Shown piece after piece: positions 2,144 through 35,704 of a stretch of 64,000 nucleotides of DNA. The DNA comes from Salinirussus salinus. GTDB lineage: Archaea > Halobacteriota > Halobacteria > Halobacteriales > Haloarculaceae. A model generated the notes under the pieces. The model was not told the DNA's origin and ran no database searches. It saw only the letters and a list, made by a program, of their open reading frames with translations. Every line of letters begins with the position of its first letter. Position 1 is the first letter of the stretch. Location: positions 124,001 to 188,000 of the forward strand of contig NZ_WOWO01000001.1 in NCBI RefSeq assembly GCF_009831455.1, in the 5' to 3' direction. The position numbers were made by a program, and so were the translations under genes.

Positions 2144-2725
2144 ATGAACCAGTCGAACTCGACAACGGAGCAGGCGAGGTCTCGTTCCCAGCACTCTCTG
2201 GAGGGCGCGTCCACTGCGTTGTCCGGAGTGGACACAGACACGAGCTTGGGGGGCGACGACGGTGTGACGCTCGGTCAGCTGTACAACGAGTTGCGCTCGG
2301 GTGATGTCATCTCCGACACCGACGGGGTCCGTCTGGTTCCCGAACAGCACTCCGAGGCAGTCCTCGAGGACGTGACGAGTACGCTGTTCGGCCAGTCCGG
2401 CTTCCAGTTCAGGGAGTCGGTCGTGAAAGAGAATCTCGACGAGATCCTGTTGCTGTTGGTCGCACACCGGAGCTCCGAGACCAACGGCAAGAGCCTGATG
2501 AGTGACCTGGCGGCGGTATTCGATACGCGTCTGAGCCCGGGGACACTCTACCCACAGCTCCACGAACTCGAGGACGAGGGTCTGCTCCAGGCCCAGGAGC
2601 TCGTCCGGACCAAAGAGTACCGCATCGACGACGAGGAGGCGTTGGCCGAGCGGGTCACCGCCGCCGCGGAGCAACACCTCACGTTGGGGCTGTTCTTCCA
2701 CGCCGCACTCGAAGAGCTATCCTGA
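2144..2725 (+). CDS. PadR-like winged-helix transcriptional regulator
   Basis: The C-terminal half (about residues 95-180) fits a PadR-type winged helix: a helix (ENLDEILLLLVAHRSS), then the recognition region LSPGTLYPQLHELEDEGLL, which is close to the PadR signature, then a wing and a terminal helix. The N-terminal 90 residues are acidic and Ser/Thr-rich with no recognisable fold. The ATG at 2144 was chosen. A GTG at 2114 would add ten residues but sits within the likely promoter, where an AT-rich run lies at 2085-2100. It stands alone between the RHH gene and the archaellin operon, so it could be a local regulator, but nothing in the sequence proves its target. Confidence 0.7.
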   Translation: MNQSNSTTEQARSRSQHSLEGASTALSGVDTDTSLGGDDGVTLGQLYNELRSGDVISDTDGVRLVPEQHSEAVLEDVTSTLFGQSGFQFRESVVKENLDEILLLLVAHRSSETNGKSLMSDLAAVFDTRLSPGTLYPQLHELEDEGLLQAQELVRTKEYRIDDEEALAERVTAAAEQHLTLGLFFHAALEELS

Positions 2726-2754
2726 GCGCGGAGCAGCGGCGTCTCGTTTCCCGG

Positions 2755-3192
2755 TCAGCACGGCTCGACCTCGACGTCGAGGGCGGTGTTCTCGAGCAGG
2801 ATAGCGAGGGCTGCTTCCGGTCGGTGCTCTCCAGCGACCAGGCCGACGTACCAGTACACCAGCGACTCGAAGGCCTCGGAGACGTCGTCGGTGTCGGCCA
2901 CGACGGTGTCCTCGGCGTCCCCGGCGCGCGCACCAGCCACGAGGGCGTGTGCGCCCGTGAGGTCGGTAAGGTCGGCGTACGCGCCCGGGGCGGTCTCCGC
3001 GCCCGGCTGACCGTCGCGTTCGTGCACTCGGTGGTTGCCGGGTGGTCGCGAGCTGGGGTCACCGTCCGGCGGGACTCCCTCCCCACCGTCGGTGTGAACC
3101 ACCCGTCGCCCGTCGTCCAGTTCGCGGACGTGTTCGTCGCTCGGTTCGAGTTCGTCCGGCGTCAGAACGCCGTTGGGGTTATCCTCTGTCAT
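2755..3192 (-). CDS. Short acidic haloarchaeal protein (DUF7500-like), end of the archaellin operon
   Basis: This 145-residue protein begins MTEDNPNGVLTPDELEPSDE, resembling short haloarchaeal proteins with a GVL(S/T)P(D/E)EL opening (I believe the DUF7500 group, from memory). The second half (FESLVYWYVGLVAGEHRPEAALAILLEN) is a more hydrophobic helical segment. No catalytic motif is visible. It starts only 2 bp after the stop of the large membrane protein and is therefore probably the last gene of the archaellin-led operon. Function is unknown. Confidence 0.6.
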   Translation of the reverse strand: MTEDNPNGVLTPDELEPSDEHVRELDDGRRVVHTDGGEGVPPDGDPSSRPPGNHRVHERDGQPGAETAPGAYADLTDLTGAHALVAGARAGDAEDTVVADTDDVSEAFESLVYWYVGLVAGEHRPEAALAILLENTALDVEVEPC

Positions 3193-3194
3193 TG

Positions 3195-5147
3195 TTACGG
3201 AAGGACTGGGATTGCACGTTCGACGAGCCGCGCGACCGGAAGGAGATACTGCCGGTCGGCGGCGAAGTACTCGAGTCCGGTAAAGCCCAGAAACAGCGCC
3301 ATCCCCGCCGCCGCCAGCCCGAGCACCAGGGCGCCGATCCGGTCGTCGTCCGGACAGACGACGAGCCAGAGGACCAGCCCCGTTGCGACTGCGAGGTTCA
3401 CCAGTGCGTGGGTCTGCATCAGGGTTCCGACGGCCGGCTCGACCGCCGCGAACGCGACGACCCAGACGGCACCGCCGGCTCCCGCCGCGAGCAGCGACGT
3501 CGTCGTGACCTGCCGCGGGGCGCTTTGCACCACCCGACGGACCGGCGTCAAGCGGAACACGCCGTAGGCGAGCAGCGGGACGGTCGGGACGAGATACCGG
3601 ACGGTGACCGTCGAGTGAAGCGGGAGCCGCGGGAGGTGGGGCAGCGCGAACAGGATGACGAAGGCGAGCGCGAACAGGTCGGTCGCCCGGCGTGGGTCGC
3701 TGGTGTCCGGCAGTTTCGCCACGAGGTGCTCCGGAGACCGTCGCAGCCAGACGACCGGAGCCGCCAGAAGACCAGCCAGGAGCGGCGCGGACTCGAGCAG
3801 CGCCAGGTCGATCGTCTCGCCGCCGGTCTCGGCGTAATCGACCCCAGGGATCCGTCCGCTCCGGAAGACGACGTGGTAGAGGCGCTCCGGCGACAGCGCG
3901 GCTACCCCCTGCTCGACTCTGGCCGCCGCCCGGAACGAGAGGTCCACTCCGGTGGTGGCCGTACTGGTCAACAACGAGGCGGCGACGTCCAGGGGGCTCC
4001 CCGACGACCCGCCCTCCGACCTCGAGGCGGTCGACGGCGACTGCCCCCCGGCGGTCGCGCCTGCCGGGTCCGCCCGGGTCGCCGCAGTACCACCCGGACC
4101 GGCGGCACCGGGGTGGCTCCCGGCCAGCCCGGGGTCGAGTGCCAGTGGGTCGCCGGCGGCGTACGCGGTGAGCAGCCGGGGCGGCACCAACGGGTTCCCG
4201 GCGACAGCAGCGTTGGTCAGCAGGAACGGGACCAGCGATACTGCCAGCGCGGCAGCCGCGGGCGCGAGCGCACGCAGGTCGTTTCGCGGGCTCGTCGCCA
4301 GGTCGACCGGGACGAGCGCGACGAGCAACAGGAACCCCTCGGGGGCGCTGATCCACGCCGCGAGCCCCACCGGCAGGTACGCCGCGGCCCGGTCGCGGAC
4401 CCGACCGGTGTAGCGGCTCCGGGCGAAGAGATAGGCCGTGAGGACGACCAGAAACGCGGTGATGACGTGTCGTTTCGGGATCGTCGCCCAGAAGCCGATG
4501 GGTCCGAGCAGAAGCGTCCCGACCCCGGCGGCGACGCCGGTCCGGCGGTCGTACAGCAGGCTGACCAGGAGATACGAACCCGCGACGAGGCCCGCGGCGG
4601 CGAGCACGGTCACCGTCTGAAGCGCCACGAGCGGGAACAGTCGCGGCGCGAGCGCGGTGGCGAAGGCGACGTTGGCGACGAACGCGAGGGTGCCGACGAC
4701 GATGCCGGCGGTGCGGAGCCGCGGCCGCCCGAAGTGGGTTGCGAGCCGACCGCCGAGGCCGGCGAGACAGAGGCTCCAGGCCCCGGCGAGCAGGAGCCGC
4801 GGCGCCGCGACCGTCGAGACGGCCTCCAGCAGGTAGAGGACGGGCAGCGCCGCGACCACCTGGCCGTAGTTGCGGCCGTAGAGCTGTCCGCCGGCGACGT
4901 AGACGCCGGGCGTCGCGGCGTCCGCGGGGCCGAAGTACACCTGCGTGAACGCCAGCGACCCGTCGGCGAGGTTGGCGAGCGCGTTCGCGACCGCCACCGT
5001 GTCAACGATGAACACGTCGACCCGCCAGGAGGCGCCGAAGAGGACGAGCGCGGCGAGAACCAGCGTCGCCGCGGGCGAGTCGGCCGCACGGCCCAGCGGC
5101 TCGCGGAGGCGGCGGCCCCGCAGCCACCCGCGGGAGGCGTCAGGCAT
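3195..5147 (-). CDS. Large multi-pass membrane protein, GT-C-glycosyltransferase-like architecture
   Basis: This 650-residue protein has about 11-12 predicted membrane helices. After the first helix there is an external loop rich in Asp (WRVDVFIVDT) followed by YFGPADAATPGVYVAGGQLYGRNYGQ. A soluble low-complexity Gly/Ser/Ala insertion interrupts the helices near residues 345-400. The layout resembles GT-C lipid-linked glycosyltransferases, where an acidic residue in the first extracytoplasmic loop is catalytic, but I see no decisive signature. It overlaps the upstream signal-peptide gene by 8 bp and sits in one operon with two archaellins. A role in archaellin modification is possible but is inference only. 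Confidence 0.6.
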   Translation of the reverse strand: MPDASRGWLRGRRLREPLGRAADSPAATLVLAALVLFGASWRVDVFIVDTVAVANALANLADGSLAFTQVYFGPADAATPGVYVAGGQLYGRNYGQVVAALPVLYLLEAVSTVAAPRLLLAGAWSLCLAGLGGRLATHFGRPRLRTAGIVVGTLAFVANVAFATALAPRLFPLVALQTVTVLAAAGLVAGSYLLVSLLYDRRTGVAAGVGTLLLGPIGFWATIPKRHVITAFLVVLTAYLFARSRYTGRVRDRAAAYLPVGLAAWISAPEGFLLLVALVPVDLATSPRNDLRALAPAAAALAVSLVPFLLTNAAVAGNPLVPPRLLTAYAAGDPLALDPGLAGSHPGAAGPGGTAATRADPAGATAGGQSPSTASRSEGGSSGSPLDVAASLLTSTATTGVDLSFRAAARVEQGVAALSPERLYHVVFRSGRIPGVDYAETGGETIDLALLESAPLLAGLLAAPVVWLRRSPEHLVAKLPDTSDPRRATDLFALAFVILFALPHLPRLPLHSTVTVRYLVPTVPLLAYGVFRLTPVRRVVQSAPRQVTTTSLLAAGAGGAVWVVAFAAVEPAVGTLMQTHALVNLAVATGLVLWLVVCPDDDRIGALVLGLAAAGMALFLGFTGLEYFAADRQYLLPVARLVERAIPVLP

Positions 5148-33286: not shown

Positions 33287-33297
33287 CCACTTAAGCG
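33287..33297 (-). promoter_or_regulatory. Core promoter of rpsL-rpsG
   Basis: On the minus strand the box reads CGCTTAAGTGG. The rpoH promoter has nearly the same box (GCGTTAAGTGG, 43949-43939), and arlA1 has GGTCTAAGTGGG, which supports this as the local TATA consensus. It lies about 25-35 bp before the start codon plus a short leader. Confidence 0.55.
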
Positions 33298-33348
33298 TCG
33301 TCTTTCGCCACGGGGTGTCTCGTGAAGGGATTCAGGGCGGGAGAGACC

Positions 33349-33739
33349 TGAGAGCAGCAAGAAAGCCCCCGCTCGCTCGGCTATTGCGACTCGCTGTCTC
33401 CGGAAATCGGAGATTTCCGGGATGAGCGCGGGACTCCGTCCCGCGAACCGTGCGAGCGGGCGCGTTGCGCCCGCGAGCAGATGACGAGAGACGGCTTCGC
33501 CGTCTCTCGAACCACGCTCCTCACTCCGTTGCGGTGTCTGCTCACGGCAGCTTCGCTGCCGTTCGCACGGGCCGAGGCGCCTGCGGCGCCTCGCGGCTTG
33601 CGTCGTCTCAGGCGCCGAGCGCGAGGTCGGCGCCGCCGACCTCGTCATGCCGTGGCGGCGAAGCCGCCACGCGAGCGGCCCCTTTCAGTCCCGCCCGGCC
33701 TGGACAGCCGAATTGGGCGGGGCTTTCTTGCTGCTCTCA
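33349..33739. repeat. 391-bp hairpin array bounded by perfect 21-bp inverted repeats
   Basis: The left end (33349-33369, starting TGAGAGCAGCAAGAAAG) is the exact reverse complement of the right end (33719-33739). Between them lie at least eight separate perfect stem-loops in a row, most with 3-nt loops, for example CCGGAAATC/GATTTCCGG (33400-33420), CGCGGGAC/GTCCCGCG, GCGGGCGC/GCGCCCGC, GAGAGACGGC/GCCGTCTCTC, ACGGCAGC/GCTGCCGT, GAGGCGCC/GGCGCCTC, CGAGGTCGGC/GCCGACCTCG and GTGGCGGC/GCCGCCAC. No transposase or credible reading frame is inside. It occupies most of the 561-bp gap between the rpsL promoter and the HTH gene at 33824. Confidence 0.85.
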
Positions 33740-33823
33740 ATATCCCTGCAGCACGACAGCCCAACTACACGCTACCTTCGCCACCGGCGGGAGCCTTTTG
33801 TGCGCGCCGGCCGACCCGCCGGC

Positions 33824-34699
33824 ATGTCCGAGACCGGTGACGGCGAGCAGTTCCCCGACGCGCTCGACCCCGCCGACGCCTTCGCCGCCCTGGCGGACGG
33901 GACCCGCGTCGCCATCCTCCAGGCGCTGTGGGAGGCCGACGACCAGACCGCCACCTTCTCCGAGCTGCGCGAGGCCGTCGGCGTCGGGGACTCCGGACAG
34001 TTCAACTACCACCTCGACAAGCTCGCCGGCCACTTCCTCCGCAGGACCGACGACGGCTACGAACTCGCGCTGGCCGGCCGCCGCGTCATCGGGAGCCTGC
34101 TCGAGGGTGCCTACACCAAACGCGGGTCCATCGACCCCATCGCGCTCGACCGGCCCTGTTCGTACTGCGGTGGGGACCGCACCTTCCGGTACGAGGACGA
34201 ACGGGTCACCATCGACTGCGCGGACTGCTCGCTCTCGGCCCGCTTCGAGGTCCCCCCGGGGGTGTTCGCCGGCTACGACCGCGGGCAGTTCCCCGTCGTC
34301 GCCCGGCAGTATCTCCGGGTGATGCTGTACGAGGCCGCGAGTGGCTTCTGCCCGTTCTGCGAGGGGCGCTTCGACGTCGCTGTCGACCCCGCGGGGGTCG
34401 CTGCCGACGACTACGAGTACGACTTCCCGACCGCGCGGTACACCTGCGCCCGCTGCGGGGAGGAACTCGTGACCGACCTCGGGACCGCACTCCTGTTCGA
34501 GCCCGCGGTCGTCGGCTTCTACGCCGACCACGGCCTCGACGTCCGGGAGGGGCCGCTGAACCGGTTCATCGTCACCCACGACGTCGATGTCCTGGCGGAC
34601 GACCCGCCCGAAGTCGCCGTCACCTACACCGCCGACGGCGAGCAGTTGCGGGTGGTCGCCGGGCCGGGCCTGTCCGTACGCGAGACGGAGCGGGTCTAG
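33824..34699 (+). CDS. HTH protein with two split zinc ribbons (DUF7351-like regulator)
   Basis: This 291-residue protein has an ArsR-like winged helix in residues about 15-95 (DAFAALADGTRVAILQALWE; FNYHLDKLAGHFLRRTDDGY). Two Cys4 zinc-ribbon units follow: CSYCGG...CADC near residues 109-130 and CPFCEG...CARCGE near 174-215. The layout matches haloarchaeal regulators of the DUF7344/7351 type (recalled, not searched). The cysteine clusters may sense metal or stabilise a ligand domain. The start is directly upstream of MSETGDGEQF. It is preceded by the hairpin array. Confidence 0.82.
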   Translation: MSETGDGEQFPDALDPADAFAALADGTRVAILQALWEADDQTATFSELREAVGVGDSGQFNYHLDKLAGHFLRRTDDGYELALAGRRVIGSLLEGAYTKRGSIDPIALDRPCSYCGGDRTFRYEDERVTIDCADCSLSARFEVPPGVFAGYDRGQFPVVARQYLRVMLYEAASGFCPFCEGRFDVAVDPAGVAADDYEYDFPTARYTCARCGEELVTDLGTALLFEPAVVGFYADHGLDVREGPLNRFIVTHDVDVLADDPPEVAVTYTADGEQLRVVAGPGLSVRETERV

Positions 34700-34930
34700 A
34701 TGGGCCACACCTCGCGAACGGTCACCGAGACGGTCCCCCCGACTGCCACCGCCGGGCCCGCCGGTCGCGAACAGCACGGCAGGCAGGGCGTCGAGACGGC
34801 GGCGCATGAGTACGCCTCCGGCAGCCGTGGTGAACACGCGCCCGACAGTTGCCAGCCGCCGGGTCCCGGCGATACCAAGACATACCAGCCCGGCCGGCGA
34901 ACGGGGCGGCATGAACGGGCGTGAACGGCG
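34700..34930. other. Intergenic region before the SDR gene
   Basis: This 231-bp stretch has reading frames on both strands but none with a persuasive composition or start. A short AT-richer patch near 34875-34885 (GATACCAAGACATACC) is a possible promoter for the SDR gene at 34931. No hairpin of note was found. Confidence 0.35.
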
Positions 34931-35704
34931 ATGACGGTGCTCGACCGGTTCCGGCTCGACGGCGACGTGGCCCTGGTGACGGGTGCTGCGGGCGGCATCG
35001 GCGGCGCCCTCGCGGAGGCGATGGCCGAGAGCGGGGCGGACGTCGCGGTCGCCGACATCGACGAGGAGGTCCACGCGGTCGCCGACCGGCTGGCTGCGGA
35101 GACCGACGCGGCTGTCGAGCCGGTCGTCGCCGACGTGAGCGAGGAGAGCGAGGTCGAGGGGATGGTCGACCGGACGGTCGAGGCGCTGGGCGGGCTCGAC
35201 GTCGCCTTCGCCAACGCCGGCGTCGCCATCCGCGGCGGCCCGGCGCCGGAGTACGACATGGACGCCTGGGACGAGCTGATGGACGTCAACCTCAGGGGCG
35301 TGTTCCTGACCGCGCGGGCAGCGGCCGCCCACATGCGGGACCACGGCGGCGGCCGCATCGTCAACACTGCGTCCATCCTGGGATTCAACGGGACGAGACT
35401 GGAGGGACTGGCGGGATACACTGCGGCGAAGGGTGGCGTCGTCAACCTCACCCGCCAGCTGGCGGCCGAACTCGCCGACCACGACATCCGGGTCAACGCC
35501 ATCGCGCCGGGCTTCATCGAGACGGCGATGACCGAGGAGGGACTCGGCGAGGTCGACAGGGACGTACTCGTGGGTCAGATCCCCGCCGGCCGGATCGGAC
35601 AGCCGGCGGACCTCAAGGGACTGGCTCTCTACCTGGCAAGCGAGGCCTCGCCGTACACGACCGGCGAGACGGTCCTCGTCGACGGCGGGATGGACGCGGC
35701 CTGA
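34931..35704 (+). CDS. Short-chain dehydrogenase/reductase (FabG-like)
   Basis: This 257-residue SDR enzyme has the cofactor motif TGAAGGIG (residues about 17-24), NAGVA, and the catalytic Ser...Tyr-x-x-x-Lys (NTASILGF ... GYTAAKGG near residue 163). The length is that of classical SDRs. The acidic residue after the second strand (ADIDEE) favours NAD(H). The substrate is not predictable. It ends 1 bp from the convergent nusA gene and, with the HTH protein, forms a plus-strand block inserted between nusA and rpsL. Confidence 0.88.
   Translation: MTVLDRFRLDGDVALVTGAAGGIGGALAEAMAESGADVAVADIDEEVHAVADRLAAETDAAVEPVVADVSEESEVEGMVDRTVEALGGLDVAFANAGVAIRGGPAPEYDMDAWDELMDVNLRGVFLTARAAAAHMRDHGGGRIVNTASILGFNGTRLEGLAGYTAAKGGVVNLTRQLAAELADHDIRVNAIAPGFIETAMTEEGLGEVDRDVLVGQIPAGRIGQPADLKGLALYLASEASPYTTGETVLVDGGMDAA

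Follow-up and report, generated by a model that had tools for sequence, protein, structure and literature searches.

How an array of about eight hairpins enclosed by inverted repeats came to stand next to the promoter of an essential ribosomal operon is the question raised by the rpsL locus of Salinirussus salinus, considered here within a window of 64,000 nucleotides, that is, the whole stretch of DNA that was analysed. The first-pass annotation proposed either a miniature inverted-repeat element (MITE) or a structured regulatory DNA region. According to the analysis presented below, the element is very probably an archaeal IS6-type MITE inserted upstream of the rpsL promoter block and carrying a branched core between its tips; its mobility and kinship are well supported, while the reason for which the core is conserved is something that we infer. 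The position of the array beside the ribosomal operon is explained by an insertion that spared the promoter.

The exact 21-bp inverted repeat was found precisely where it had been reported, at 33349-33369 (TGAGAGCAGCAAGAAAGCCCC) with its reverse complement at 33719-33739. Being correct as inner repeats, these ends nevertheless enclose only 391 bp of a larger element, since an exact 8-bp direct repeat, TTCGCCAC, bounds it on both sides (33304-33311 and 33777-33784, in each case 43 bp outside the box CAGCAAGAAAGCCCC) and sets the true limits at 33312-33776, 465 bp. The terminal repeats are about 57 bp long and imperfect, with the perfect 21-bp stretch as their inner part, and the left tip of the window copy is degenerate (GGGGTGTC); alignment of the sequence outside all copies extended the outward likeness approximately 40 bp past the boxes CAGCAAGAAAGCCCC. 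As had been stated before, no credible open reading frame or gene lies within 33312-33776, an own DDE transposase of ~211 aa being absent, and for this reason the element is regarded as a MITE and not as an IS. The eight perfect stem-loops with 3-nt loops are present as well, although their stems measure 8-11 bp instead of 8-10, and they do not form a simple row; all of them branch off within a single larger nested arm (33370-33678). The parts of the locus are the following, with strand given where it applies.

33287..33307, minus strand: rpsL promoter block CGAAAGACGACGCTTAAGTGG, intact and kept upstream of rpsL in relatives without the element
33304..33311: left target duplication TTCGCCAC, exact 8-mer, with its TTCG reaching into the rpsL promoter block from upstream
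33312..33776: the complete non-coding element of 465 bp, delimited by the two copies of the duplication
33312..33369, plus strand: left terminal inverted repeat with tip GGGGTGTC... and a perfect inner stretch of 21 bp
33355..33369, plus strand: left subterminal box CAGCAAGAAAGCCCC, with exact copies elsewhere
33370..33678, plus strand: left arm in extended form, as compared with the uninterrupted copy L067
33614-33621 (GCCGAGCG) and 33672-33678 (CGAGCGG): partner of the arm base stem CGCTCGCTCGGC, split by two extra hairpins
33400..33420: hairpin 1, 9-bp stem, loop GGA (GNA)
33427..33445: hairpin 2, 8-bp stem, loop TCC (GNA on the opposite strand)
33456..33474: hairpin 3, 8-bp stem, loop GTT
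33485..33509: hairpin 4, 11-bp stem, loop TTC (GAA on the opposite strand)
33544..33562: hairpin 5, 8-bp stem, loop TTC
33573..33593: hairpin 6, 9-bp stem, loop TGC (GCA on the opposite strand)
33622..33644: hairpin 7, 10-bp stem, loop GCC, one of two insertions in the closing strand of the arm
33651..33671: hairpin 8, 9-bp stem, loop GAA, the other insertion in the closing strand of the arm
33679..33692, plus strand: CCCCTTTCAGTCCC, left half of the central palindrome; this copy has neither the right half nor the right arm
33719..33733, minus strand: right subterminal box CAGCAAGAAAGCCCC, with exact copies elsewhere
33719..33776, minus strand: right terminal inverted repeat, tip GGTAGCGTGTAGTT...
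33777..33784: right target duplication TTCGCCAC, exact 8-mer

The element adjoins the rpsL promoter block and is inserted 4 bp upstream of it, not within it. In a genus mate with 99% identical RpsL (G451), rpsL stands beside an SDR gene without the element, and no element was seen upstream of rpsL in any other relative read, locus L231 excepted. The expectation of empty sites in relatives is therefore borne out as far as the absence at rpsL goes, but G451 does not offer a clean empty site, lacking the HTH gene too; an attempt to find one there through the flanks of another copy (L063) was abandoned, the flanks not being continuous in that genome. In the window an HTH gene and an SDR gene occupy 33824-35704 between nusA and rpsL; in some relatives nusA is directly upstream of rpsL, and in G451 the SDR gene alone lies between. 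The idea of regulatory DNA acting at the rpsL promoter finds no backing either in the promoter block, intact here and present in relatives devoid of the element, or in the gene context of other copies, and regulation of rpsL by the window element is probably to be discarded.

Copies at other loci were looked for in the own genome, examined as stretches around matches, and in a sample of Halobacteria. The own genome contains 51 partial matches and 41 end boxes with up to 3 mismatches (1 in the control), which combine into approximately 19-20 paired elements, plus singles, with boxes spanning 177-543 bp. Exact copies of the box CAGCAAGAAAGCCCC number 24 in this genome and 104 in G267, with none for the reversed-pattern control, and the box is present in 9 of 391 Halobacteria genomes, most having none. 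The central motif CCCCTTTCAGTCCC occurs in 87/146 genomes of the family at 0-127 copies each, and a covariance model of one arm found matches in 322/391 sampled genomes and 76/86 genera (E up to 0.001), which, with the hits per genome capped, are not numbers of copies, and with E-values that are rough owing to short calibration; model R1 matches the window at 33370-33459 (E 0.0015). In the best matches from other families box, arm and centre follow one another as they do here, and the outermost bases differ. Flanking genes of 19 copies are convergent in 7, tandem in 6 and divergent in 6 cases, as judged from gene calls by a composition heuristic, so a terminator or promoter role is disfavoured for these intergenic copies. 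The outward conserved sequence was also considered as a promoter and rejected: it has no convincing TATA/BRE, and both ends carry the same sequence. No match was found in phages or IMG/VR that would indicate viral carriage.

Several arrangements of the copies deserve mention in their own right. The only long case that could have passed for an autonomous copy with a gene between its boxes is an element interrupted by the insertion of an IS630-like transposase gene (L255, 2100-3290). A second MITE-like element (TAGTGTTTGTTGCG...CGCAACAAACACTA) has inserted several times at one position of the central stem (L190, L192, L245, L254). Five loci of G267 (L242, L243, L245, L254, L255) have an extra end box ~45-51 bp outside the element's own box, which suggests insertion next to or into emptied elements, and L244 resembles an empty shell of two joined boxes. 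Six haloarchaeal plasmids from two families (L308-L313, at ~2500-4100 in each) carry one arm with half of the centre, and 450-600 bp downstream of it lies the gene of an OB-fold 'DNA-binding protein'; the ~500-bp non-coding region between this arm and the OB-fold gene has matches in 163 PLSDB records and could be a maintenance or transfer region.

Target duplications were revealed beyond the window copy. An exact 8-mer is found at the tip in 3/19 own-genome elements, with 0.28 expected and none of 200 shuffles reaching 3; besides TTCGCCAC, these are GCGCGGAC at L060 and CAGCGGCG at L075, both at the positions expected for their end types. The diverged member L265 has GTCGCTGC/GTCGCCGC, matching at 7/8, and in a second family all three elements considered (L279, L288 and L295, from three genomes) have exact 8-bp repeats lying 39-40 bp out on both sides. 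In total seven elements in two families have 8-bp duplications, six exact and one with one mismatch. No clear duplication was detected in most own-genome copies or in 38/38 copies tested in G267, implying that most insertions are old or rearranged. The circumstance that would speak against mobility, namely ends unique to this place and held at the same position in all relatives, was looked for, and the reverse was observed. Dispersed copies, absence at rpsL in relatives, duplications and the IS6-type tips described below together uphold the earlier proposal of a miniature inverted-repeat element.

The tips of these related elements (GGTNSTGTTNAG..) match those of archaeal IS6-type insertion sequences; they begin with GG and carry the TGTT motif, and the tip pattern GGTNGTGTTTAGTTAG occurs in 4 places with up to 1 mismatch and in 9 with up to 2, with 0 in the control. 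G280, G334 and G239 contain complete ISs, 691-699 bp long, that encode PF13610 transposases (211-212 aa when the frame is unbroken) and have 8-bp duplications; their tips are GGTGCTGTTCAGATTAG, GGTAGTGTTCAGATAAG and GGTCGCGTTAAGTTAG, to be compared with GTACTGTTCAGATTAG (L295), GGTCGCGTTTAGTTAG (L060) and similar ones of the elements. ISs and elements agree at 15/16 tip bases at best and share no likeness beyond the 16-17-bp tip; a clear sharing of ends with an autonomous element is seen in G280 and G334. These two genomes are rich in PF13610 genes; seven are present in G239, one in G231 and one in the own genome (L319), where the tips are related, not identical, and copy-rich G267 and G300 gave no PF13610 match. 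When the tip pattern was looked for near a transposase in the own genome, three further sites emerged, one of them a diverged member (L265) and two unrelated. In size and duplication these ISs agree with published archaeal IS6 members (PMC6807381, PMC7986276), the former giving for ISH29 697 bp, 211 aa and an 8-bp TSD, and also disputing the placement of archaeal members in IS6. An IS6-type mobiliser is proposed because of the tips GGTNGTGTTTAGTTAG together with the 8-bp duplications.

The interior of the element has an organisation of its own. In complete copies, exemplified by L056, L063 and L067 with both palindrome halves and two arms, the closing stem is followed by the left arm and the central palindrome CCCCTTTCAGTCCC...GGGACTGAAAGGGG, and the right arm is the same module inverted; a complete 325-bp copy folds as a four-way junction (z -9.9). 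Folded as single-stranded DNA, 33312-33776 reaches -167 kcal/mol as compared with -113 +/- 5 for dinucleotide shuffles (z -10.7). The window copy is a deletion derivative without the right arm and the right centre half, and hairpins have enlarged its left arm relative to L067. Orthologous copies in three sister species (L089, L090, L091) differ from one another in hairpins that were gained in place. Among 50 arms with 19 pairs, 95.4% of cells are paired versus 69.9 +/- 0.9 in shuffles and 216 double changes are counted versus 55, a comparison inflated by related copies among the arms; slid controls pair at 32-43%, a contrast inflated in turn by the structure having been derived from the same alignment. 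An internal T.T mismatch and the internal-loop sequences of the arm are kept across genera. In G267 the transposon tips have decayed, but 89 copies retain an almost unchanged 15-bp inner box, so that pure transposon decay is an insufficient account, and it looks as though the core were maintained in its own right.

What moves the element and what preserves its core may be conceived differently. Mobilisation by another transposase family producing 8-bp duplications, IS1595-type or ISH6-type, with a coincidental likeness of the tips to IS6, is improbable: such duplications are not unique to IS6 and an IS1595-type gene exists in G079 and G267, but a search of the own genome for the IS1595 type (PF12762) gave no gene, and at best ~15/16 tip bases agree with IS6-type ISs from three other genomes. 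Still slightly less credible is a structured non-coding or cis-regulatory RNA, a terminator or riboswitch-like leader, whose hairpins the DNA palindromes would simply encode. The strong covariation with conserved unpaired and mismatched arm positions and the very stable predicted folds are what such an RNA would display; however, the arms are one module in opposite orientations, meaning that any transcript has one sense and one antisense arm, neighbouring genes are oriented nearly at random, and no Rfam family scored above its gathering threshold (17.8 and 17.4 bits for the best chance matches). G-T/G-U wobble accounts for 5/905 standard pairs versus 8/214 in tRNAs of the same loci (Fisher p 0.0008, with a small control), and GNA 3-nt loops close 45/70 perfect element hairpins versus 16/80 in flanking DNA (stem >=7; Fisher p 5e-8), such loops being the hallmark of extraordinarily stable DNA mini-hairpins (PMC4686876). 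Since wobble is nearly absent and GNA loops are favoured, folding at the level of DNA is indicated, and the whole points to folded DNA being selected, or copied, and not to RNA.

The choice between selected and copied palindromes touches two further readings, each of which we regard as possible but doubtful. Covariation may be mainly a mutational by-product, with replication strand-switching remaking perfect palindromes in a decaying MITE and no selection acting on folding: perfect extra hairpins are gained and lost between copies, also within orthologous ones (L090 versus L091), correction of quasi-palindromes yields double changes without G-T intermediates, and snap-back is favoured by GNA loops. 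Palindrome correction would, however, erase mismatches, while the T.T mismatch is retained in different genera, as are the internal-loop sequences, and the same arm is recognisable in 76/86 genera; the conserved mismatch speaks against strand switching as the whole story. Just as tentatively, the order box, arm, central palindrome, inverted arm, box might represent a functional module of folded DNA, recognised as a cruciform or single strand by a host or plasmid protein and merely carried by IS6-type tips, in which case the occurrences on unrelated plasmids, with their fixed place by the conserved non-coding region and the OB-fold gene, would be the same module at work. Under the preferred reading of an IS6-type MITE, the element would have inserted in this lineage 4 bp upstream of the rpsL promoter block, duplicating TTCGCCAC, by means of an IS6-type DDE transposase acting in trans on GGTNSTGTTNAG-like tips; the branched palindromic core between these tips (closing stem, arm, central palindrome, arm), which is widespread in Halobacteria, may be kept because it folds as DNA, in cruciform or single-stranded form, for transposition or for binding of a host protein, and extra hairpins would arise locally. 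If folding is selected, these elements offer a natural setting in which the recognition of structured DNA in archaea can be tested, and if it is a mutational by-product, they hold a clear record of hairpin birth through strand switching.

MITEs usually conserve their ends alone, and the middle drifts. The present elements thus belong to a familiar kind of mobile DNA with an unfamiliar conserved shape, an elaborate middle kept by compensatory changes in 322/391 genomes, and among the papers found in a literature search none had these sequences in a haloarchaeal setting or reported such a family. One of the closest counterparts is MITEHarch3, named in PMC6807381 as a haloarchaeal IS6-family MITE listed in ISfinder, and alike in being haloarchaeal, IS6-type and without transposase; for the two IS6 MITEs PMC7986276 gives lengths of 227 and 336 bp, the latter being near the 308-325 bp of complete two-arm elements in several genomes. 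Judged by description, MITEHarch3 may be a member of the element's family, and the accessible description mentions no branched or covarying core. Archaeal IS6-type ISs (ISH14, ISH29, ISHarch12 and others) share the GG-starting tip and the 8-bp target duplication, but encode a 211-aa transposase in ~697 bp, whereas the element is non-coding. The MITEs, PATEs and SMRs of Haloquadratum are, in the consulted sections of PMC3119063, likewise haloarchaeal mobile repeats without transposase, and the MITEs among them also have only the tips in common with their IS; PATEs are devoid of terminal inverted repeats and of duplication and SMRs make no duplication, and these sections describe no branched core for any of the three. 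Having both terminal repeats and a duplication, the window element differs from PATEs and other IS200-IS605 derivatives. REP/BIME palindromes with their REP-associated tyrosine transposases are similar as dispersed intergenic hairpins, but the terminal inverted repeats and 8-bp duplications of the element point to a DDE enzyme, not to Y1.
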